Origin: Clostridia bacterium
Lineage (GTDB): Bacteria; Bacillota_A; Clostridia; Oscillospirales; CAG-382
Direction of reading: 5' to 3'
Assembly (NCBI GenBank): GCA_017517985.1
Contig: JAFWWX010000064.1
Span: 1-10,264 of the forward strand
DNA length: 10,264 nucleotides
Part shown: piece after piece, positions 2-10,045 of the stretch
Layout: each line of letters starts with the position of its first letter
Position numbering within the stretch: the first letter of the stretch is position 1
Notes under the pieces: model-generated
What the model was told of the DNA's origin: nothing
Database searches by the model: none
The model's input: only the letters and a program-made list of their open reading frames with translations
Program-made: the position numbers and the translations under genes

Positions 2-274
2 ACCGTTTCCGTTGTATTTGCACGAGGTGACAGTATGGCAGATAAGATTGAATCCGGGGATGCTTTAATTGTTGATGAATCTAAAACTTATATAAATAGT
101 GGTAAAGTTTATGCCTTTGTTTATGATTCTGAATTATTTTGTAAACAATTAAAGAAAACAGCTGACGGCATAACAGCGATTTCATTCAATAAAGATTATA
201 AACCATTTGAAATAGATAAAACAAAACAATTTGCAGTTGTTGGACAAGTTATAAGTGCAATGAAAAGGATATAA
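2..274 (+). CDS. Phage CI/LexA-type repressor, S24 peptidase domain (partial, N-terminus outside window)
   Basis: This is the C-terminal 90 residues of a self-cleaving repressor; the open frame runs off the left edge. The ATG at 35 is an internal Met of the motif FARGDSM, not the start. Seen: the S24 signature GDSM-x-x-x-I-x-x-GD, with the likely nucleophile Ser encoded at 32-34, then a strand-rich segment (KVYAFVYDSELFCKQL) carrying the likely catalytic Lys at 143-145. Known of the family: CI, LexA and UmuD proteins use this Ser/Lys dyad for RecA-stimulated self-cleavage, and phage members have an N-terminal HTH that holds the prophage silent. The HTH would lie upstream, so DNA binding is inferred. 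It ends 34 nt before the SNF2 gene on the same strand, so read-through into the defence genes is plausible. A UmuD-like protein is an alternative, but the phage genes in the window favour a repressor. Confidence 0.85.
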   Translation, partial: TVSVVFARGDSMADKIESGDALIVDESKTYINSGKVYAFVYDSELFCKQLKKTADGITAISFNKDYKPFEIDKTKQFAVVGQVISAMKRI

Positions 275-290
275 CCGCACCATTTATTTA

Positions 291-304
291 TGCTAAAATA
301 AGCA
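291..304 (+). promoter_or_regulatory. Possible extended -10 promoter overlapping a small dyad, upstream of the SNF2 gene
   Basis: The 34-nt gap after the repressor gene contains TGCTAAAAT (291-299), which fits an extended -10 (TGn followed by TAAAAT at 294-299). No good -35 lies at the usual distance. The same bases form a short inverted repeat, TGCT-N6-AGCA (291-304), which could be an operator half-site pair. A start about 7 nt after the -10 would fall at 305-307, only 2-4 nt before the ATG at 309, and no Shine-Dalgarno is seen there. Both the promoter and the operator are guesses from short motifs. Confidence 0.3.
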
Positions 305-308
305 CAGA

Positions 309-2915
309 ATGATGGAAGTGAAAACAAAGTTTCAATCAAAATATTCTGCAATTGTTGAGGCTAATCGTCTTGAAAGTCTTGCTGACGATAAAAACTTCCT
401 GCCGGTTTATGCATCTTCTAATGCTAAAATTTATCCGTATCAGATTATGGCGGCACGATTTGCTCTGCGTTCCGATTATTTGCAAGGGTGTATTTTATGT
501 GACGAAGCATCTTTAGGTAAAACCTATGAGGCACTTTTGGTTGCTTGTCAAAAATGGTACGAGGGAAAACCTAATATTCTTGTGATTTTACCTCCGAACC
601 TCGTTCCTCAATGGAGACGAAAATTAGAAAAAGATTTCCCGACCGTTCCGTTCGTGTTTTGGAATAATTCAAATACTCTACCCGATGAAGTCGGAATTAT
701 TATTACAACATACGACATCGCAACAAGACACGCACTTGCAGTTAAAGAGAGGGAATGGGATCTTGTAATTTTTGACGAAGCAGATGTTTTATCAAAGCCG
801 GAAAACAAAATGGTGCAGACTCTAAAAGATGCAGTCGGCAATGCTTACAAATTACTCCTGACTCCGACTCCTATCACGATGAGTATTATGGATATTTATT
901 GGCTTATTCATTTTATTGACGAAAGTGTTTTGCCTGATGCTGATTGGTTTTATAAACGATATTTCAGACAACCTGAAAGATACAAAGAACTTACAGAGTG
1001 GGTTTCGCAGTTTTGTTTCAGGACTTTAAAAGTTCAAACAACGGATTATGTGAATTTCACACGCAGAATACCGATTACAGTTGATTATGAGTTATCAAAG
1101 GAAGAAAAACTTATTTATAAATTAGTTTCTGCTTATATTTTGTCTGATGACAAAGCGGCATACCCTGAAATGGACAGTTACAATTTGAATCTATTATTTT
1201 TCAAATCGCTTTCATCTTCGCCAAGAGCATTTTCAAACATTCTTGACGGTGCTATAAAAAGGACTTACGGACACGAAAAAGCCGTATTGGAAGAGATACA
1301 AAAACTCACCGATGATATCCATATAAATTCAAAGACAGCAGAACTTTTGAAAATATTAAAAACGACTTTCAATCACTTAAAATCAATGAAAGTAAAACAA
1401 AAGGCAATAATTTATGTCGAACACAGTCTGACATTTGATTATTTATACAAGATATTTTTAGGTCAGGGTTATAACACTATAAAATACAAAGACAACGATT
1501 CAATAGAGCAATTCCGATTTGATGATGAAATTCAAATCCTGATAGCAAATGACGAAGCATCAAAGGGCATAGATTTAGAGTTCTGTCCTGTTGTTGTGAA
1601 TTACGACTTGCCGTATGATTCGGTCAAGATTGAACAGAGAATTTGCAGGTGTCATCGTCAGGGACAAAACTCCGATGTTTTGGTAATAAATATGTTGAGT
1701 AAAGAAAATTTTGCCGATGTTCGTATCTTGGAACTCATCAATAAAAGGACTTTGCAGTTCAACGGAATATTCGGAATGAGTGATGATATTGTCGGGAATT
1801 TTGATACAAAAATAAAAGAGGTGTTGCAAAACTTCAGAAGTTCAACAGAGGTTCAAGAGGCATTCAAAACTAATCTTGCAGTACATAAGGAAACAAACGA
1901 AGAGATAACTCAACGTGCTGAAGATATCCTGTTCACAACTTTTACAAAATCAATAGCTGACAAAGTTTCGATTAATCCAAAATATATGGAAGATAAAATT
2001 GATGAGATAAATAAAGATTTGTGGGAGGTTGTAAAATATTATTTCCTTAATATAAAAGAGGGTTGGTACGAAATTGATGACGAGAATAAAACCTTAAAAC
2101 TTATCGAGGGATATAACAGACCATATTTATTTTCATACAAAGATGACAGATTTTTAAAGGATTATAAAGGCTATCAGCAGTACGGAATGAATAAAGATTT
2201 TTCTCCGGCACGAGGCAGAATCGCATTAACCTCTGTATTTTCAAAAGGTATATTAAAAGAGATGGATATGGCTTGTCCACAGGAAGCAAAGATTTATGTA
2301 AATTCAGATATTGAGCCTGTTGAAATCGGTTATTATAATGTCGGGATCACTTCAAAAGATAATACTTCTCACAAGCATATTTTAATCGGGCAGACAAAAG
2401 ACGGAAGAACATTATCTGATAGTGAGTGCCGAGAACTTTTAAATCTTCCTGTTGTAAAAATAGAAGAACGCAACGGCTTTGATACAATCCGAATGGGGAG
2501 TTTACTTGAGCCGTTTGAGTTTAATTTGAATGATAAAATATCAAAGGATGAGATTTTACAGGAATATTTCAAGAACAAAGAGGGTTCTATTGCTTACGAG
2601 GTTGAAAAATTGAGAATGCTTGCAGGACGTAAAAAGTCTGCTCTTGAACTCAATTTGACCGACCTTAAAACCGAAATTGAAACGATGAAAAAGCAATTAA
2701 ACAGTAAGAATTCTGACCGCTTGGAAGAATTAAAATTAACAAAACAATTAAAGCTGAAACAAAAAGAATTACTAAAAAAAGAAGAGGGATTGTTTTTTGA
2801 TAAAGCACAAGTAGATGTTGAAACAGATGATGCAATTCAAGAGCTTACAAACGATTATAATTTCAATGTAATAATAGGTGCAAAATTCAAACTTCAAATC
2901 GTTAAAGCAGAGTAA
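309..2915 (+). CDS. SNF2-family (SF2) helicase-like ATPase of a Type III R-M locus
   Basis: An 868-aa SF2 ATPase of the SNF2 type, expected to translocate on double-stranded DNA using ATP in the cytoplasm. Seen: Q-like segment YPYQ (42-45), motif I DEASLGKT (65-72), Ia ILPPNLVPQW (93-102), ITTYD (132-136), motif II DEAD (156-159), motif III LLLTPTP (182-188), motif V ASKGIDLEFCPVVVNYD (417-433), motif VI EQRICRCHRQGQ (442-453). The order and the HRxGQ box are characteristic of SNF2 proteins. Motif I has DEAS where DEMG is usual, and motif III has LTPTP where LTGTP is usual. About 400 residues follow the core, including a charged probable coiled coil at about 785-828; I recognise no nuclease motif there. 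The ATG-ATG start at 309/312 lacks a Shine-Dalgarno. The stop is 49 nt before mod. A DrmD-like role is possible, but no DISARM partners are present. The family is secure; the function in this locus is unknown. Confidence 0.88.
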   Translation: MMEVKTKFQSKYSAIVEANRLESLADDKNFLPVYASSNAKIYPYQIMAARFALRSDYLQGCILCDEASLGKTYEALLVACQKWYEGKPNILVILPPNLVPQWRRKLEKDFPTVPFVFWNNSNTLPDEVGIIITTYDIATRHALAVKEREWDLVIFDEADVLSKPENKMVQTLKDAVGNAYKLLLTPTPITMSIMDIYWLIHFIDESVLPDADWFYKRYFRQPERYKELTEWVSQFCFRTLKVQTTDYVNFTRRIPITVDYELSKEEKLIYKLVSAYILSDDKAAYPEMDSYNLNLLFFKSLSSSPRAFSNILDGAIKRTYGHEKAVLEEIQKLTDDIHINSKTAELLKILKTTFNHLKSMKVKQKAIIYVEHSLTFDYLYKIFLGQGYNTIKYKDNDSIEQFRFDDEIQILIANDEASKGIDLEFCPVVVNYDLPYDSVKIEQRICRCHRQGQNSDVLVINMLSKENFADVRILELINKRTLQFNGIFGMSDDIVGNFDTKIKEVLQNFRSSTEVQEAFKTNLAVHKETNEEITQRAEDILFTTFTKSIADKVSINPKYMEDKIDEINKDLWEVVKYYFLNIKEGWYEIDDENKTLKLIEGYNRPYLFSYKDDRFLKDYKGYQQYGMNKDFSPARGRIALTSVFSKGILKEMDMACPQEAKIYVNSDIEPVEIGYYNVGITSKDNTSHKHILIGQTKDGRTLSDSECRELLNLPVVKIEERNGFDTIRMGSLLEPFEFNLNDKISKDEILQEYFKNKEGSIAYEVEKLRMLAGRKKSALELNLTDLKTEIETMKKQLNSKNSDRLEELKLTKQLKLKQKELLKKEEGLFFDKAQVDVETDDAIQELTNDYNFNVIIGAKFKLQIVKAE

Positions 2916-2937
2916 AAGTTATCTATTTTCATGGTAA

Positions 2938-2954
2938 TATAATTTCAAAAGGGG
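2938..2954 (+). promoter_or_regulatory. Possible internal -10 box and ribosome binding site for mod
   Basis: The 49-nt gap before mod holds a perfect TATAAT (2938-2943) followed by AAAAGGGG (2947-2954), which ends 10 nt before the ATG at 2965. The bases 17 nt upstream of the -10 (AAAGTT) are not a recognisable -35. The G-rich run is an acceptable Shine-Dalgarno and supports 2965 over the in-frame ATG at 3001. The promoter call is weak because TATAAT arises easily in AT-rich DNA. Confidence 0.35.
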
Positions 2955-2964
2955 TAATAATTAT

Positions 2965-4920
2965 ATGGTTGAAGGTATCGAAAAAATAAGCGGACAGAGC
3001 ATGGATATAGAGTTATCCGAAAAAGAAAAATTAAAATCTGTATTCCCACAATGCTTTAATGACGGCAAACTTGATATTGATAAGTTGCTGAATCTTTGCG
3101 GTGAATACATCGACAATGATTTTGAAAAATACAAGTTTGAATGGAAAGGCAAATCAAACTGCTATAAAATTGCATGGAAGCGTTCAACGGGAACACTTCG
3201 CCCATGCAAAGATGAGAGTGTTAATTTCGATACAACAAAAAACCTTTATATTGAGGGTGATAATTTAGAAGTCCTCAAACTATTACAAAACGCTTATTTT
3301 AGAAAAGTAAAAATGATTTACATCGATCCTCCGTATAACACAGGAAACGACTTTGTTTATGAAGATGATTTTGCTGATCCAATGGCAAAATATAAAGAGA
3401 TTACCCAACAGACAACAAAATCTAACCCCGAAACAATGGGAAGATTTCACACCAATTGGTTGAATATGATGTACCCACGCTTGAGGTTAGCATCAAATCT
3501 TCTTCGTGATGACGGTGTAATTTTTATTTCGATTGATGACCATGAATTATATAATTTAACAAAATTATGCAACGAAGTTTTTGGGGAAGAAAACTTTATC
3601 GGATTGTTTACTATTCAAAGTAATCCAAGAGGTTCTCAAAATAGTAAATTTTTGTCTTATGTTCATGAATATATACTAATGTATGCTAAATGTTACGATA
3701 GATTAGAGATTAAAGGTCTTGGTAAAGACGAAAGTGCGATTTCTGAATATTCTTTAAAAGATCAAGATGGCAGATTATATAGATTACTTGGATTAAGAAA
3801 ACGTGGAGGAGCTTGGAGAAAAGAAGATAGACCGAATATGTTCTATCCTGTCTATGTAAATCCTCAGACTCTTAAAGTTTCACTAACTCAAGCCGATGGT
3901 TATACTATTGAAGTCATACCTAAACGCCCAACAGGGGAATTAAGCAGATGGACATGGGGAAAAGATAAATTTATTGAAGATATTGATAAAGTTGTTCCCA
4001 AAAAAGTTAATAGAGTAGGCGAAGACGAGGCTTGGGATATTTTTAGAAAAGACTATCTTGACAACGATGATGGTGAAATTAAGACAACAAAAGCTAAAAC
4101 AATATGGATTGAAAAAGAAATTAATTATCAAAATGCTAAAAATGAAATAAAAGATTTATTTGGAAATTCAGAAGTTTTTGACTACCCAAAACCTACATAT
4201 ATAGTAAATAAATTGGCATCTATGGTAAGCATGGATGATTCAGATATTGTTATGGACTTCTTCTCAGGTTCTGCGTCATCTGCTGATGCCGTTATGCAGT
4301 TAAATCAACAAGATGGAATTCAAAGAAAATTTATTATGGTTCAATTACCCGTTCAATTAGATGAAAATTCGCAGGGTGCTAAAGAAGGTTATAATACTAT
4401 TTGTGAAATAGGTATGGAACGCATAAGACGTGCCGGCAAAAAATTAACCGAAAATTCAACTAATCAATTATCGTTAGAAGAAAAACAACCGCTTGATATT
4501 GGATTCAGGGTGTTCAAACTTGATACTTCAAATCTTGCGAAATGGGATTCCACACCGACTGAAGATGAAGAAGAATTAAAAACAAGATTTTTGGGTATGG
4601 CTGATACGGTTAAGGTCGGCAGAACACCTGAAGACTTGGTTTATGAGGTTATGCTTAAACTCGGTATTCCTTTAGATTACAAAGTGATTCCGATAAAAAT
4701 TAACGATAAAGAAGCTTTTGCTATCGGTGAAGATTGTCTTGTTTTGGTTTGCACAGACAAAGGCGAAAGCGGAATTTCAGGGGATGATATTCGTTTGATG
4801 TGCGATGAATACACTCCTGCCAAAATCGTAACTTCAGAGGAAGCATTTGCAGATGATTCTGCTTTATCAAATGCATACTATATCCTCAAAGACAAAGATA
4901 TTGAAATGGAAATATTATAG
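2965..4920 (+). CDS. mod: Type III restriction-modification Mod subunit, adenine-N6 DNA methyltransferase
   Basis: A 651-aa methyltransferase that should recognise the target site and methylate adenine using S-adenosylmethionine; in Type III systems Mod also supplies sequence specificity to Res. Seen: KNLYIEGDNLEVLKLL (93-108), catalytic motif IV DPPYNTGNDF (121-130), a variable segment at about 215-405 that is the likely target-recognition domain, KPTYIVNKL (409-417, motif X region), and SAM-binding motif I DFFSGSAS (431-438). DPPY preceding the FxG motif is the beta-class order typical of Type III Mod proteins, as are the length and a C-terminal segment resembling the Mod-type ending (EEAFADDSALSNAYYILKD). 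It lies 49 nt after the SNF2 gene and 3 nt before the 239-aa gene. No simple-sequence tract of the kind used for phase variation is visible. The recognition sequence cannot be predicted by eye. Confidence 0.93.
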   Translation: MVEGIEKISGQSMDIELSEKEKLKSVFPQCFNDGKLDIDKLLNLCGEYIDNDFEKYKFEWKGKSNCYKIAWKRSTGTLRPCKDESVNFDTTKNLYIEGDNLEVLKLLQNAYFRKVKMIYIDPPYNTGNDFVYEDDFADPMAKYKEITQQTTKSNPETMGRFHTNWLNMMYPRLRLASNLLRDDGVIFISIDDHELYNLTKLCNEVFGEENFIGLFTIQSNPRGSQNSKFLSYVHEYILMYAKCYDRLEIKGLGKDESAISEYSLKDQDGRLYRLLGLRKRGGAWRKEDRPNMFYPVYVNPQTLKVSLTQADGYTIEVIPKRPTGELSRWTWGKDKFIEDIDKVVPKKVNRVGEDEAWDIFRKDYLDNDDGEIKTTKAKTIWIEKEINYQNAKNEIKDLFGNSEVFDYPKPTYIVNKLASMVSMDDSDIVMDFFSGSASSADAVMQLNQQDGIQRKFIMVQLPVQLDENSQGAKEGYNTICEIGMERIRRAGKKLTENSTNQLSLEEKQPLDIGFRVFKLDTSNLAKWDSTPTEDEEELKTRFLGMADTVKVGRTPEDLVYEVMLKLGIPLDYKVIPIKINDKEAFAIGEDCLVLVCTDKGESGISGDDIRLMCDEYTPAKIVTSEEAFADDSALSNAYYILKDKDIEMEIL

Positions 4921-4923
4921 AAA

Positions 4924-5643
4924 ATGTCAATTCAATTAAAAGAAGAAAAATTGAAAGATTTTTTTGATGAAGGTGGTGTCGGAACAAGACAGTATTCATT
5001 TTTGAATTGGCGTTTTTCTCCGCACGATTCTATTGAAGTGCAATTTTGCAATTTAGCAGAGGGGTATTTTGAAGTTGCAAATAATTTAATTGAGCAATGT
5101 CTTGATAATAATAACGACCGTAAAGCAGATATATGGATATTTCCTATTCTTTTTAATATCGTACACGCTGTTGAGTTATACTTAAAAGCCATCAACTCGA
5201 TGTATCCGATATATTTTAAATTAAAAGGCTTTGTATTAGAAGAGCTTCCCGATAGTAAAATCGAAGGAGACCACGACATAAAACAAATGTGTCAAACGGC
5301 AATAAGCAAAGTAAGAAACGATTCTGACAGAGATCCTGATTTATATAAGGCATTAAAAGAAGTCTTGCAGTTTATAAATATTATTTATAAATACTCTGAT
5401 GATGTGGCTTTTACAAGATATCCTCTGCCAAAAGATGCAAAGTCTGATTTAAATAAAGAATATTTTTATGTTTCACACCAAAATGTAACCATAAATATGG
5501 TTGAACTTCATAAATGGGTTAAAAAGATTTCTAACAATTTATATAACATAACCGGCTTTTTAATCGATATGATTGACGAACTAAACGGTTACAGAAACGA
5601 GGTTATAGATGATGTCGTACCTCGTGAATATTACTATGAATAA
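4924..5643 (+). CDS. Unrecognised helical protein in the R-M operon, weakly HEPN-like
   Basis: A 239-aa, mostly helical, soluble protein that I cannot assign to a named family. Seen: a hydrophobic helix with FNIVHAVELYLKAI (77-90), then DHDIKQMC (116-123) after a linker of about 25 residues, then a helix (142-157) and TRYPLP (164-169), then long C-terminal helices. An ELYLKA-type helix, followed by an H-[DE]-[IL] segment and later an RYP segment, is a layout I associate with HEPN-like helical proteins. The classic HEPN RNase motif R-x4-6-H is not evident, so RNase activity is not supported. The ATG begins 3 nt after the mod TAG without a strong Shine-Dalgarno, suggesting translational coupling to mod. 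It ends 17 nt before res. Placement between mod and res suggests a regulator, assembly factor or separate effector; all of these are inference. Confidence 0.8.
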   Translation: MSIQLKEEKLKDFFDEGGVGTRQYSFLNWRFSPHDSIEVQFCNLAEGYFEVANNLIEQCLDNNNDRKADIWIFPILFNIVHAVELYLKAINSMYPIYFKLKGFVLEELPDSKIEGDHDIKQMCQTAISKVRNDSDRDPDLYKALKEVLQFINIIYKYSDDVAFTRYPLPKDAKSDLNKEYFYVSHQNVTINMVELHKWVKKISNNLYNITGFLIDMIDELNGYRNEVIDDVVPREYYYE

Positions 5644-5647
5644 GGAG
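5642..5647 (+). promoter_or_regulatory. Ribosome binding site of res
   Basis: AAGGAG overlaps the TAA stop of the preceding gene (5641-5643). The gap to the ATG at 5661 is 13 nt, longer than usual and T/A-rich. An in-frame TAA at 5658-5660 excludes any earlier start, so 5661 is the first possible ATG. Confidence 0.7.
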
Positions 5648-5660
5648 TATTTTTTAATAA

Positions 5661-8600
5661 ATGAAGTTAAAATTTAAAAATCAAAAATTCCAAACAGATG
5701 CAGTAAATTCAGTTGCAGACTTATTTATCGGACAAGAGAAAGCAAAAATGACATTCTCAATAGATAGTAATGTCGGGAATTTTGATTTGATTATGAGTGA
5801 ATTCGGGATTGGCAACAAACTTGAAATTTCTCAAGATGACTTAATAAAAAATATGCACACCGTTCAAAAACGTAATCAACTCCCGATTACTCGTGATTAT
5901 GAAAACCGCCAATATTCAATAGAAATGGAAACAGGAACTGGTAAAACTTATGTTTATACAAAGACAATGCTCGAACTAAACAAACGATTCGGATTTACAA
6001 AATTTATTGTTGTCGTTCCCTCTGTTGCTATAAGAGAGGGTGTGTTTAAGTCTTTGCAGGTTACACAAGAGCATTTCTCTAACCTTTATGATGGTGTTCC
6101 TTACAGATATTTTATTTATAATTCGTCTAAATTGTCGGATGTAAAACAGTTTGCGACATCTGACCATATAGAAATAATGGTTATAAATATTGATGCGTTC
6201 AAAAAAGCTGAAAATATCATCAACCAAGAACAAGATAAACTGAATGGCGAAGCGGCTATAAAATATATTCAGGCAACTAATCCGATTGTAATTATTGATG
6301 AACCGCAGTCCGTTGATAATACTCCAAAGGCAAAAGATGCAATTCAATCACTTAATCCGCTTGCAGTTTTTAGATATAGTGCAACGCACAGAGAAAAGAT
6401 TAACCTTTTGTATCGCTTAACTCCGATTGATGCTTATCAAATGGGACTTGTTAAGCAGATTTGTGTATCGTCAAATTCGGTCGCAAATGATTTCAATAAA
6501 CCTTATATTATGCTTAAATCCGTATCCAACGAAAACGGATTCTCTGCCAAAATTGAAATTGATGTCCAAAAACAAGATGCCAAAGTCGAGAGACAAACTT
6601 TCACCGTAAAGCCGGGAGCGGATTTGTATCAATTATCAGGAAGAGAATTATATGAAGGGTATGTAATTGAGGGAATTGACTGTACCAAAGATTATGAATG
6701 TATTGAATTTTCAAACTCTGAAACAGTTAATCTCGGTAAAGCCATCGGTAGTGTTGATGAAAATATAATCAAAAAAGCACAAATTTACAGAACCATTGAA
6801 ACTCACTTGGAAAAAGAACTCCGCTACCACGATAAAGAAATTAAAGTCCTGTCTTTATTCTTTATTGACAGAGTTGAAAAATACCGCACAGAAACAGGCG
6901 AAAAAGGTATTTACGCACAAATGTTTGAAGAGTGCTACGAAGAATTAATCAATAAACCAAAATATCAAGAACTGAAAAAATGGTTTAATACAGATGTTGA
7001 AAAAGCACACAACGGCTATTTTTCACAGGATAAAAAAGGTATTTATAAAAATACTAAAGGCGATACTCAAGCAGATGATGACACATACAACACAATTATG
7101 CGTGATAAAGAATGGTTATTATCCTTTGAATGTCCGTTAAGATTTATCTTCTCACACTCTGCATTAAAAGAGGGGTGGGATAATCCAAACGTGTTCCAAG
7201 TTTGCACTTTGATTGAACAAAAATCAACATTCACTTGCAGGCAAAAAGTCGGTCGTGGTTTAAGGTTATGTGTAAATCAAGACGGTGAGAGAATTGAAGA
7301 TAGAAATATAAACATTCTGCACGTTATGGCAAATGAAAGTTTCGCTGAATTTGCAAGCACATTACAAAAAGAAATTGAAGATGAAACTGGTGCTAAATTC
7401 GGTGTTCTTCAGTTGAGTAATTTAATCGGTTTAACTTGGCAGGAACAAGTTGAAGTTGAACATCAAATGGATGAAACTGATGCGGCAATGGCTTATGGTG
7501 CATTGATGGTTGAAGGTGTAATTGATAAAGACGGAAATATTAACCAAGATGCGGATATTGAAAAAGTTGAAATACCAAACATTGCTGAACCATTGCAAAA
7601 AGAGATTAAAAAGCAGATAAAAGAAAGTCACTCTGAACCGATTTCGCTTGATAAATTCAAAACGATAAAATGTACAGAGGTTAAAGTTGAACAAAAATCA
7701 TTCACTCATGAAGAAGCACAGGAACTTTACGAAGATTTAAAAGAAAAGAAAATTATCACTAAAGAAGGCAAAGTCAAAGATACAATGAAGGCTCAACTTG
7801 CGGCAGGAATTTTGGATTTGAAAAACAGATATTCAAATGCGGCACAAAGAGCAATTATTCAGGCATTAGAAAAAGCTGACAACAGACCTGTTATTCACGA
7901 TGCAAACAATGAAGTTACAGTAAGATTAAAACAAAAAGTTTTATTATCGCCTGAATTTAAAGAATTGTGGAATAGAATTAAACAAAAAACCACATACAGA
8001 GTTACGATTGATACTGAAACTCTAATAAAAAATTGTATTGCAGAATTGAAAGATATGCCACCGATTCCGAAAGCAAAATTAGTTTCTCAAACAGCAGAAA
8101 TTAATATCGAACAAGCAGAAGTATCATATACTGAAAAACACATTCGCTCTTCCGAAATATCCGGCACATATCAAGTTTTACCTGATATAATTCGATTAAT
8201 TTCATCTGAAACATTACTTTCAAGACGAACAGTAATAAAAATCATCAACGGAAGCGGAAGAATAAAAGACTTTATAAATAATCCGCAAGCGTTTTTAGAA
8301 AAAGCAATGGAAATTATCACAAGAAATCGTCATAATATGGCAATTGACGGAATTAAATATGTAAAACTTGCAGGGGAAGAATACTACACACAAGAGATAT
8401 TTGATTCGGATGAACTTATTGCATATATTGATAAAAATGCCGTTAAGGTTGAACACAGCGTTTATGATTATGTTTTATACGATAGTAAAACTGTAGAAAA
8501 ACCTTTCGCTGAAAAATTAGACGAAGATCCCGATGTAAAAATGTTCTTTAAAATTCCTGATAAATTCAAGATTGAAACACCAATCGGATCATATAATCCT

Positions 8601-8804
8601 GACTGGGCAGTATTTTTGGAAAAAGACGGAGAACAAAAATTATACTTTATTCTTGAAACAAAAGGTACAACAAGTTTATTTGATTTAAGACCAACAGAGC
8701 GATTAAAAATAAATTGCGGAAGAAAACACTTTGAGGCATTAGATGGAGTCGAATTCTCTGAATTGCCTGTTAAAGATTGGACAGAATTTAAGGTTAATCT
8801 GTAA
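5661..8804 (+). CDS. res: Type III restriction-modification Res subunit, DEAD-like ATPase and PD-(D/E)xK endonuclease
   Basis: A 1047-aa subunit that, with Mod, should hydrolyse ATP and cut unmodified DNA. Seen: motif I METGTGKT (89-96), Ia-like VVVPSVAIREG (117-127), motif II IIDEPQ (211-216), motif III RYSATH (238-243), and a region at about 490-535 with SALKEGWDNPN and RQKVGRGLRL (motifs V and VI). Near the C-terminus is a PD-(D/E)xK nuclease signature, NPDWAV (D at 981) followed by ILETKG (E999, K1001). DEPQ rather than DEAD or DEAH, and a C-terminal nuclease, are Res hallmarks. The length is close to EcoP-type Res proteins and all the motifs look intact, so the enzyme is probably active. 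It is the last gene of the plus-strand operon. Its 3' end overlaps the opposing phage gene by 11 bp, and no terminator hairpin is seen beyond it. Confidence 0.94.
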   Translation: MKLKFKNQKFQTDAVNSVADLFIGQEKAKMTFSIDSNVGNFDLIMSEFGIGNKLEISQDDLIKNMHTVQKRNQLPITRDYENRQYSIEMETGTGKTYVYTKTMLELNKRFGFTKFIVVVPSVAIREGVFKSLQVTQEHFSNLYDGVPYRYFIYNSSKLSDVKQFATSDHIEIMVINIDAFKKAENIINQEQDKLNGEAAIKYIQATNPIVIIDEPQSVDNTPKAKDAIQSLNPLAVFRYSATHREKINLLYRLTPIDAYQMGLVKQICVSSNSVANDFNKPYIMLKSVSNENGFSAKIEIDVQKQDAKVERQTFTVKPGADLYQLSGRELYEGYVIEGIDCTKDYECIEFSNSETVNLGKAIGSVDENIIKKAQIYRTIETHLEKELRYHDKEIKVLSLFFIDRVEKYRTETGEKGIYAQMFEECYEELINKPKYQELKKWFNTDVEKAHNGYFSQDKKGIYKNTKGDTQADDDTYNTIMRDKEWLLSFECPLRFIFSHSALKEGWDNPNVFQVCTLIEQKSTFTCRQKVGRGLRLCVNQDGERIEDRNINILHVMANESFAEFASTLQKEIEDETGAKFGVLQLSNLIGLTWQEQVEVEHQMDETDAAMAYGALMVEGVIDKDGNINQDADIEKVEIPNIAEPLQKEIKKQIKESHSEPISLDKFKTIKCTEVKVEQKSFTHEEAQELYEDLKEKKIITKEGKVKDTMKAQLAAGILDLKNRYSNAAQRAIIQALEKADNRPVIHDANNEVTVRLKQKVLLSPEFKELWNRIKQKTTYRVTIDTETLIKNCIAELKDMPPIPKAKLVSQTAEINIEQAEVSYTEKHIRSSEISGTYQVLPDIIRLISSETLLSRRTVIKIINGSGRIKDFINNPQAFLEKAMEIITRNRHNMAIDGIKYVKLAGEEYYTQEIFDSDELIAYIDKNAVKVEHSVYDYVLYDSKTVEKPFAEKLDEDPDVKMFFKIPDKFKIETPIGSYNPDWAVFLEKDGEQKLYFILETKGTTSLFDLRPTERLKINCGRKHFEALDGVEFSELPVKDWTEFKVNL

Positions 8805-9246
8805 GGTATTTGTTTATTTCTTGTTTTATCTCTTCGTAATCGTCATCTGTCAAGAATAAATACGGTCTTGCAGGGATTTCAACAGATTTGTTTTTGCCGG
8901 CTTGACCTCCAAGCTGATGAATGGCGGCATATTCTAAATTCGATCCGATAACCGCAGAATCATTATCATAATATGTATTTATTGATGCGGCAAGTTTACC
9001 TTCAACTTGTAAAATCTGTCCCGGCCACTTTCTTTTTTTAGTTCTTTGCTTTTTAGTTGATTCTGCCAAATCAAGCCATTTGTCAGGTCTGCCTTCTTCC
9101 TTAAAATTCTCTTCGGTTGAATAAGCAAATATGCCGGCAATATTTTTCATTAAAGGGCGCAGGTTCTCAGTCTTTTTGGCAAGAGTAAGAAGTTTTTCGT
9201 GGACTTCTTTATTATCAAATTCAATCTCTATCGGTTTGTCGTTCAT
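8794..9246 (-). CDS. Phage virion morphogenesis protein, Mu gpG-like (tail completion)
   Basis: A 150-aa protein of the phage virion morphogenesis family (Mu gpG-like), a structural or assembly factor for tail completion. Seen: GRPDKWLDLAESTKKQR (52-68), then W-x-GQILQVEGKLAASI (74-89), then a conserved block IGSNLEYAAIHQLGG (100-114), and near the end VEIPARPYLFLTDDD (122-136). These are the order and spacing of this family, and the length looks complete. I chose ATG 9246 because AAGGAA precedes it; a TTG at 9273 in the same frame would extend the protein by 9 residues and deepen the overlap with dam. As placed, it overlaps the end of dam by 26 bp, so the two are probably translationally coupled. 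The following gene expected in a Mu-like head module is absent; the opposing res gene begins there instead. Confidence 0.88.
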   Translation of the reverse strand: MNDKPIEIEFDNKEVHEKLLTLAKKTENLRPLMKNIAGIFAYSTEENFKEEGRPDKWLDLAESTKKQRTKKRKWPGQILQVEGKLAASINTYYDNDSAVIGSNLEYAAIHQLGGQAGKNKSVEIPARPYLFLTDDDYEEIKQEINKYLTD

Positions 9247-10045
9247 GAAGTTCCTTAATTGGGTAATTAGCAATCAACAATTCTTTAAAAATCTTTTTGC
9301 GATTTTCCACATCAGAGCGGTTGTTAATTCCGTTTAATCTTTCAACTTCTATCATTTCAAAGCCCTTATATAATTCTCGGACTTTAGGAGAATCATCGTA
9401 TGAAAGTAAAAATCTGCCTTTAATATTGCCCAAAACTTCTCTTAAGCGTTCGTGGTCAAAGTCTTTGGTTGAAGTTACATCATAACCACAGCCTTGAGAA
9501 TACGGAGGATCGCAATAGAAGAATGCATCTTCAAAATCGTATTGCTTAATAAGAGTTTCAAAGTCACGATTTTCAATCATAACTTTATCAAGTCTTTCGT
9601 GTATAGCATCAATCTTATCTAACACATTCTTTTGAGATTTACTTGCTCCGCCGGAAGATTTTTTAACCGTACCAAAAGACGAACCTTTACCTCCAAATGA
9701 GCGTGTAATAATAAAGTAGAATTGGACAGCCTTTTGAATATCAGTAATAAACGTTCCATTCAGGAATTGGAAGAACATATCTCTTGATCCAAGCAGATAT
9801 TTATACTCTTCTTTAAATGCGTTCGGATGGTATTTTACAATACGGAAAAGGTTTACAAGTCTGCCATCAAGATCGTTATAAATCTCTAAGTCAGCCCATC
9901 TGTCCTTATAAAATAGAACCCAACCACCGCCACCAAATGGCTCAATATAAGACTTTATATCTTTTGGAATAAGTGGAGCAATAGTCTTGCGCAATAATCT
10001 TTTACCACCAACCCAATTAATTAAGCATTTTTTGTCTGTTGTCAT
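9221..10045 (-). CDS. dam: Phage D12-class DNA adenine methylase (Dam family)
   Basis: A 274-aa adenine-N6 methyltransferase of the D12/Dam family (alpha class). Seen: N-terminal WVGGKRLLRKTI (11-22), SAM-binding motif I YIEPFGGGGWVLFYK (33-47), and catalytic motif IV FFYCDPPYSQGCGY (175-188), followed by LLSYDDSP (213-220). Motif I preceding DPPY is the alpha-class order, opposite to that of the Type III Mod in this window, so the two enzymes are unrelated in architecture. The ATG at 10045 has a strong AAAAGGAG six nt upstream. No cognate nuclease gene is adjacent, so it behaves as an orphan phage methylase. Known role of such genes: modifying phage DNA to evade host restriction, or regulation. 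Target GATC is typical of Dam but unproven here. It stands between a probable F-like gene and the gpG-like gene, as an inserted extra. The stop is TGA. Confidence 0.93.
   Translation of the reverse strand: MTTDKKCLINWVGGKRLLRKTIAPLIPKDIKSYIEPFGGGGWVLFYKDRWADLEIYNDLDGRLVNLFRIVKYHPNAFKEEYKYLLGSRDMFFQFLNGTFITDIQKAVQFYFIITRSFGGKGSSFGTVKKSSGGASKSQKNVLDKIDAIHERLDKVMIENRDFETLIKQYDFEDAFFYCDPPYSQGCGYDVTSTKDFDHERLREVLGNIKGRFLLSYDDSPKVRELYKGFEMIEVERLNGINNRSDVENRKKIFKELLIANYPIKELHERQTDRD
9251..9256 (-). promoter_or_regulatory. Ribosome binding site of the gpG-like gene
   Basis: On the minus strand AAGGAA lies 4 nt before the ATG at 9246, inside the end of dam. It favours this start over the in-frame TTG at 9273. 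Confidence 0.55.

Follow-up and report, generated by a model that had tools for sequence, protein, structure and literature searches.

Organization of the locus

The DNA considered here, a stretch of 10,264 nucleotides (nt) from a Clostridia bacterium (assembly GCA_017517985.1, contig JAFWWX010000064.1) that is called the window below, carries four consecutive genes on the plus strand: one for an SNF2-family ATPase, the mod and res genes of a type III restriction–modification (R–M) system and, between these two, a gene for a protein of 239 amino acids (aa), referred to as P239 (Table 1). Open reading frame calling places 49, 3 and 17 nt between them, just as the first-pass annotation of this DNA had read it. 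The domain matches of SNF2, Mod and Res are decisive, and the key motifs of all three are intact. Comparison of related loci shows that, within the one order examined, SNF2, Mod and Res form a stable core, and that near-identical operons differ by replacement of whatever lies between mod and res, a position termed the slot hereafter.

Both R–M subunits have the features of type III enzymes. Mod is an N6-adenine methylase (Pfam N6_N4_Mtase, 2.8e-28; PDB 6k0w, 6.8e-57; EcoP15I Mod 4zcf, 1.6e-54) with DPPY and an S-adenosylmethionine-type motif; a script located DPPY and DFFSGSAS on either side of the target-recognition region. Res is a superfamily 2 (SF2) ATPase with a C-terminal PD-(D/E)XK nuclease (RE_endonuc PF19778, 8.3e-38), in which the motifs TGTGKT, DEPQ, QKVGRGLR and PDW...ETK were found by script, and one gene separates mod from res. 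Type III enzymes assemble as Mod2Res1, recognize an asymmetric site and cleave 25–27 base pairs away from it. The window system is similar to EcoP1I and EcoP15I in that it has an adenine-methylase Mod with a replaceable middle, mod before res, and a Res that combines an SF2 ATPase with a C-terminal nuclease. Unlike EcoP1I and EcoP15I, which are known as mod–res pairs only, it possesses an SNF2 ATPase as an upstream core component, and the content of its mod–res slot varies.

Table 1. Features of the window, in order of position
Feature	Position	Strand	Evidence and remarks
S24/CI-like repressor, C-terminal part	35..274	+	PF00717 4.3e-15; phrog_6201 (CI-like repressor) 9.6e-19; left flank, outside the module
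Discrete cassette (module)	282..8805	+	96–97% nt identity to L005 and L007, except the Mod middle
TGCTAAAAT, candidate extended −10-like element	291..299	+	Left edge of the cassette, 9 nt before the SNF2 start
SNF2-family ATPase, 868 aa, nearest to DrmD	309..2915	+	SNF2-rel_dom 1.1e-29
Type III Mod (N6-adenine methyltransferase), 651 aa	2965..4920	+	PADLOC MTase_III 2.1e-182
Mod middle (target-recognition region)	3597..4243	+	No nt match to L005; differs between otherwise near-identical cassettes
P239, all-helical, HEPN-like predicted fold, 239 aa	4924..5643	+	Slot occupant
Type III Res (SF2 ATPase and PD-(D/E)XK nuclease), 1047 aa	5661..8804	+	PADLOC REase_III 2.4e-295
Phage virion morphogenesis gene (Mu gpG kind)	8794..9273	−	PF05069 1.2e-31; TIGR01635 above cut-off; convergent with res; right flank
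Dam-type (D12) phage methyltransferase	9221..10045	−	PF02086 8.1e-30; phrog_56 1.2e-79; right flank

The SNF2–Mod–Res core

Gene neighborhoods were counted in a sample of 286 genomes, which is the one order holding locus L009 (its member L008 is titled Gastranaerophilales). Res is matched at E ≤ 1e-20 in 36 of them, and 24 genomes with 27 places make up the close clade, defined by a Res identity of at least 60% with split and partial genes included. Decayed pieces in G250, G026 and G054 (46–72% identity) and genomes below 60% identity were left out, and the surroundings of G001–G004 were read also from L005 and L007–L009. The state of SNF2 could be assessed at 24 of the 27 places, the others being two contig ends (G242, G040) and a deletion fusion of SNF2 to Res (G087). 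With truncated or inverted copies counted as present, SNF2 occurs at 22 of the 24. At 20 places it precedes mod in the same orientation, G003 having a split and G082 a truncated copy, and at some of these toxin–antitoxin or zeta-like genes lie in between; at two it is inverted near mod, either adjoining it (G118) or with one gene between (G004); and it is absent from G221 and G207.

The converse count gives the same picture. At E ≤ 1e-60, 28 SNF2 genes are found in 23 of the 286 genomes, four of them ending at a contig edge. In 21 of the 24 assessable cases, a mod gene of the same orientation follows (the contigs of G056 and G286 break off within it and do not show res); two further SNF2 genes are inverted near mod and one is fused to res. 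Moreover, SNF2 and Res distances correlate with r = 0.90 over 16 complete loci, a value reached in none of 2000 permutations; these loci were chosen for having three full-length proteins, so that any locus in which a gene is split or missing was excluded, as was L104, which nearly duplicates L103. On a tree of 25 Res proteins of at least 900 aa (split or partial G002, G003, G233, G087 and G131 excluded; states set by hand, with no slot state for L119 and no SNF2 state for L120, L001 and L060), the presence of SNF2 requires two changes over 21 rows. The proposal of the first-pass annotation that the SNF2 gene recurs with this Mod/Res clade thus stands for the order examined, and on these distances and gene orders SNF2 is inherited together with Mod and Res. 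In viral contigs and named phages, no SNF2 relative was found; Res was found at three loci in viral contigs.

Three side observations concern the SNF2 gene. In G087:C8 (8187–9926), the deletion has left a single open frame of 590 aa that begins as SNF2 and finishes as Res. Contigs G004:C72 and G123:C71, both of 23,467 bases, give the same SNF2 match and break off within an SNF2 gene that has 97.5% identity to that of the window; they represent either a shared element or mis-binning. Finally, the gap between SNF2 and mod is a second cargo position, with a HigB-type toxin and its partner or a zeta-like AAA_33 protein (L106, L102, L109, L008, L126), assigned by Pfam for L102 and L106 and by similar first residues for the others.

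The SNF2 protein itself carries the motifs ...GKT, DEAD and QRICRCHR, located by script, and no nuclease domain detected by Pfam. Its closest named relative is the SNF2 protein DrmD of DISARM (NF038318); the score of 293.9 bits lies far below the cut-off of 950, and a family-level assignment to DrmD was rejected. Membership in DISARM was rejected as well, with no drmA, drmB, drmC or DISARM methylase among the window genes; unlike in DISARM, the partners of SNF2 here are Mod and Res (MTase_III, REase_III). Another comparison is offered by type III loci with a helicase of about 1050–1100 aa and a DUF4391-like gene, namely the Erysipelothrix phage phi1605, L003, L013, L125, L127, L128, L129 and L131. 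These also have a further helicase gene upstream of mod, and several of them carry cargo genes. In contrast to the window SNF2, their helicase is longer and weakly similar (34–46 bits where matched), with no match at the limit used for phi1605 and L127, and the DUF4391 gene, confirmed by Pfam for L128 and assigned by position and length in the other loci, is not found in the window. Among the listed papers of the non-subscription literature on SNF2 or DUF4391 with type III R–M, at the level of titles and opening lines of abstracts, no description of an SNF2–Mod–Res core was found.

Turnover of the slot between mod and res

The slot is readable at 25 of the 27 close-clade places and holds nine kinds of gene. 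P239 occupies it at four (G001–G004). Eight slots have no called frame: six are gaps of 4–18 nt, and those of G040 (167 nt) and G131 (93 nt) adjoin a partial Mod or Res. The remaining slots contain a 150–154-aa protein with a hydrophobic start (three loci; 131/150 and 87/150 residues shared), a YaaC-like protein of 514 aa (three loci; identical in L103 and L104, with 426/514 residues shared with L116), AbiJ (one locus), Bro-N alone (two loci) and proteins of 168, 207, 231 and 248 aa at one locus each. The 207-aa protein (L111) has a match to a contractile-injection sheath initiator (PF10934), which is no argument for a defence role; none of the other three reaches a Pfam cut-off. In farther relatives, RhuM (L060) or a Shedu SduA_C protein (L127) takes this position.

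Bro-N also stands directly before res behind another occupant in L008, L009, L103, L104, L115, L118 and the phage-collection record L001. As a side observation, Bro-N-like proteins of about 280 aa are encoded within a few nucleotides of res in L103, L104, L113, L115, L117, L118, L008, L009 and L001; the assignment was made by Pfam for L103, and L113 was compared with L117, L118, L009 and L001.

The clearest evidence of exchange comes from sister operons. L111 and L114 are 92.5% identical up to the mod stop codon and 99.2% identical from about 20 nt before res, with 710 versus 18 nt in between. For L102 and L103, the matching parts (94.0 and 97.3%) end no more than 2 nt from either gene, and their intervening DNA measures 445 versus 2411 nt. 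In the pair L113–L115, the match stops 6 nt before the mod stop and restarts about 890 nt before res owing to the shared Bro-N part; between L105 and L102 it restarts a few nucleotides inside res. The empty slots of L107 and L108 align without a break. These alignments show near-identical operons that differ by replacement of the slot, the borders coinciding with the mod stop and the res start or lying close to them. They are stronger evidence for exchange than the count on the Res tree, where, over 24 rows each, the slot requires at least 12 changes and Bro-N four: as there are 12 slot states, 11 changes are the minimum in any case, and the count says little beyond variety.

The fixed four-gene set proposed in the first-pass annotation is therefore not borne out. 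In the 286-genome census, this Mod/Res clade occurs mostly without the 239-aa gene, its slot being otherwise empty or filled by other genes.

P239 and its relatives

P239 has no match in Pfam, NCBIfam or PHROG at the limits used, and only a weak one (E 0.01) in PADLOC. A large protein set yielded 47 homologues at E ≤ 0.001, 37 of which were aligned with the window protein; the 38 members have 17 invariant columns, including H81, E84, K88, H117, R165, Y166 and Y182. A further alignment comprised 43 chosen sequences. When structure models of two family members were compared with known folds, HEPN folds ranked first, without statistical significance. A fold search with P239 in a viral library gave nothing significant, with a HEPN protein third (E 0.24); no HEPN family appeared among the 20 Pfam matches (E ≤ 1) of the 38 members, and a profile search of PDB sequences returned no HEPN chain at E ≤ 10. 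A weak Pfam match to baeRF_family7 was obtained for five of the 38, the best at 3.6e-4.

Judged by motif, the window P239 is not a catalytic HEPN RNase, as Rx4–6H is absent from it. This motif occurs somewhere in 15 of the 38 members, and in 11 of them as Rx6H ending at the invariant H117. The latter branch seems, by eye, to include the form found in a type I operon (L016). An RNase-like motif of the Rx6H branch may have been lost or replaced in the branch of the window.

The surroundings of P239 were scanned with one genome per species, giving 54 loci and, together with one viral contig, 55, of which 51 have a P239 frame. An R–M gene directly adjoins P239 at 11 of the 15 loci scoring at least 100 bits and at 12 of the 51 overall, versus nine of 439 control genes from the same loci; the R–M queries were partly drawn from these loci, and Pfam confirms the R–M genes scanned. 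The gene is embedded in R–M operons of three types, a feature of the PrrC kind. The order HsdM–HsdS–P239–HsdR is supported by Pfam in L016 and by similarity in L017; P239 follows HsdS in L038 and an EcoEI-like HsdR in L014 (Pfam). In L011, it lies between a C5 methylase and an AlwI/FokI-type nuclease (type IIS). Since L005–L007 are copies and L008/L009 as well as L016/L017 are alike, the independent cases are fewer than those counted. The other relatives, among them many short forms that their titles place in Bacteroidota and Bacillota, have no adjoining R–M gene by the queries used, so the association belongs to the nearer branch.

P239 is found in six of the 286 genomes of the order census, four times in the slot. 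Named phages contain no relative when either the window protein or the L016 relative is the query; viral contigs yield none with a single sequence and one with the alignment (L059, 46% over part of the protein). Among 72,556 plasmid records, three were matched by the L016 query.

Two neighborhoods are recorded here as side observations. In L010 (Lachnoclostridium phytofermentans, 9935–11459), P239 is immediately followed by a TIR-domain protein (PF13676, 4e-21), and no R–M gene lies within three genes of P239 by the queries used. In L014 (6460–9825), the EcoEI-like HsdR that precedes P239 has an N-terminal DUF4145 (1e-9).

A discrete cassette with an exchanged Mod middle

The whole block aligns to L005 and L007, both from uncultured bacteria, and the flanks of the window have no nucleotide match to theirs at the E limit used. 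In further relatives, the alignment to the window begins at 276 or 287. The sole break within the block falls in the middle of mod, at about 3597–4243 against L005 and to 4326 against L007. At the protein level, the middle of Mod shares 69/215 residues with L005, compared with 204/211 in the preceding and 203/225 in the following part. These comparisons show a block that occurs elsewhere with different flanks and with an exchanged Mod middle. The exchanged part is, by established knowledge, the target-recognition region of a type III Mod, and the recognition site is therefore expected to differ between cassettes. The Mod of L129 (G254:C8) shares 149/215 residues with the window in this region and only 104/211 and 73/225 outside it; it is the reverse case, in which the alignment points to exchange of the recognition region across Mod lineages. 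In L005 and L007, a gene with a protein-kinase domain (PF00069, 5.4e-31 in L005) follows res after 15 nt and is not in the window; this is perhaps another cargo position.

The surroundings of the window look phage-like because a CI-like repressor lies to the left and a gpG-like gene and a Dam-type methylase lie to the right. The repressor resembles the one beside the L009 cassette (68.6% nt identity over 277). A gpG-like gene is the first gene after res in L101 and the second in L103 and L104; farther from res, at about 2.5 and 6 kb beyond it, such a gene is present in L112 and L108. In L005, a Mu-type transposase (PF09039, PF09299) is the next-but-one gene upstream of the same cassette. No near-identical phage record was found for the window, the only match spanning 72 bases. 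The Dam-type and gpG-like genes overlap by 53 nt (9221–9273).

At the left edge of the cassette, TGCTAAAAT is kept in all four relatives compared (L005, L142, L143, L145). By its consensus it may be an extended −10 element; it is absent from the output of the promoter scan, which demands a −35, and in this role it would leave a very short leader before SNF2. Promoter and terminator scans of the window gave sites no more numerous than in shuffles, no RNA genes were found at gathering scores and no tRNA, and the RNA fold at the end of res is unremarkable (z −0.82).

Possible function and alternative explanations

It is moderately probable, in our judgment, that the locus is a phage-borne type III R–M module with an accessory motor and an exchangeable slot, in which P239 is a second-line effector of HEPN fold. 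Mod and Res would restrict DNA that is unmodified, and the exchanged region of Mod would determine the site. SNF2 would translocate on DNA and either help Mod and Res to reach or clear sites or report blocked DNA. P239 would be an effector or sensor–effector kept inactive by the R–M proteins, probably by the restriction subunit, and if restriction were blocked or overwhelmed, it would stop the infected cell in the manner of PrrC in EcoprrI. Without the usual HEPN RNase motif, the window P239 would have to act via another site or without catalysis; the invariant residues listed above could form such a site.

The architecture of the slot suggests a first line of defence combined with an exchangeable back-up, and P239 is probably an exchangeable second-line module, an effector guarded by the R–M system. 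Earlier publications supply a background with which the locus agrees. Many type I and III R–M systems carry HEPN, Sir2, ParB and REase-fold toxin-like domains, with toxins displacing one another (PMC3506569), and R–M subunits have been proposed to hold toxins off as EcoprrI does PrrC (PMC3710099). Coupling of restriction to suicide genes was thus put forward in 2012–2013 (Makarova 2012, Anantharaman 2013), and toxin-like accessory genes of R–M systems are mentioned in general terms in PMC12707154. With PrrC of EcoprrI (type IC) and the HEPN and toxin genes of those R–M loci, the window shares a candidate second-line protein inside an R–M operon and displacement between related loci; the P239 fold is predicted as HEPN-like. 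Unlike these, P239 belongs to a separate family in which no ATPase domain was found, its window member lacks the HEPN motif, and it is seen in type I, IIS and III operons. The two P239 plasmid records viewed, which have no annotated R–M gene in the stretch, weigh against an effector guarded by R–M proteins.

The best surviving alternative, possible and yet rather unlikely, is that P239 serves restriction as a small regulator or adaptor, for instance by binding RNA or nucleotides and tuning the R subunit or its translation. It would fit the missing RNase motif and the position of P239 directly before the restriction gene in L005, L007, L011, L012, L013, L016 and L017, and PMC3710099 discusses inactive HEPN proteins as regulators in the case of MtlR. 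However, a regulator tuned to one enzyme would not be expected to give way to AbiJ, YaaC and other proteins or to be absent where eight of 25 slots are empty, nor to serve type I, IIS and III enzymes alike. Of the two roles considered for the small protein in the first-pass annotation, a second effector is on these comparisons likelier than a regulator.

It is improbable that the slot is a mere insertion hot spot whose passengers gain operon expression and have no functional link to restriction. Such a view is favored by the occupants of L101, L102, L112 and L118, which match neither Pfam (above cut-off) nor PADLOC, by the sheath initiator of L111 and by the HigB-type toxin that also enters the SNF2–mod gap; nevertheless, AbiJ is a named anti-phage protein, RhuM and Shedu occupy the same slot in farther relatives, and P239 recurs independently in three R–M types. 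As for a fixed extended type III system that requires all four proteins together, the tight spacing on one strand and the same gene order in L005, L007 and, as far as its short contig reaches, L006 would agree with it, but these three are near-identical copies of one module with the P239 frame broken in L006, P239 fills only four of 25 readable slots and the slot turns over between near-identical operons, so that this explanation is very improbable and, for P239, largely refuted.

A bolder form of the effector proposal is doubtful and is offered as speculation: P239 might represent a new guard family that crosses R–M classes, with a HEPN fold and a non-canonical active site, docking on the motor or nuclease subunit of type I, IIS and III enzymes and firing upon its inhibition, and SNF2–Mod–Res might be a platform for interchangeable slot effectors.

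The comparison brings out a three-gene SNF2–Mod–Res core and, inside type I, IIS and III operons, the P239 family, which has no match in the Pfam, NCBIfam and PHROG libraries searched. The sister operons differ in the slot gene and have a nearly constant restriction core; they are natural pairs in which a coupling between restriction and the slot occupant would be testable by the swap of one gene.

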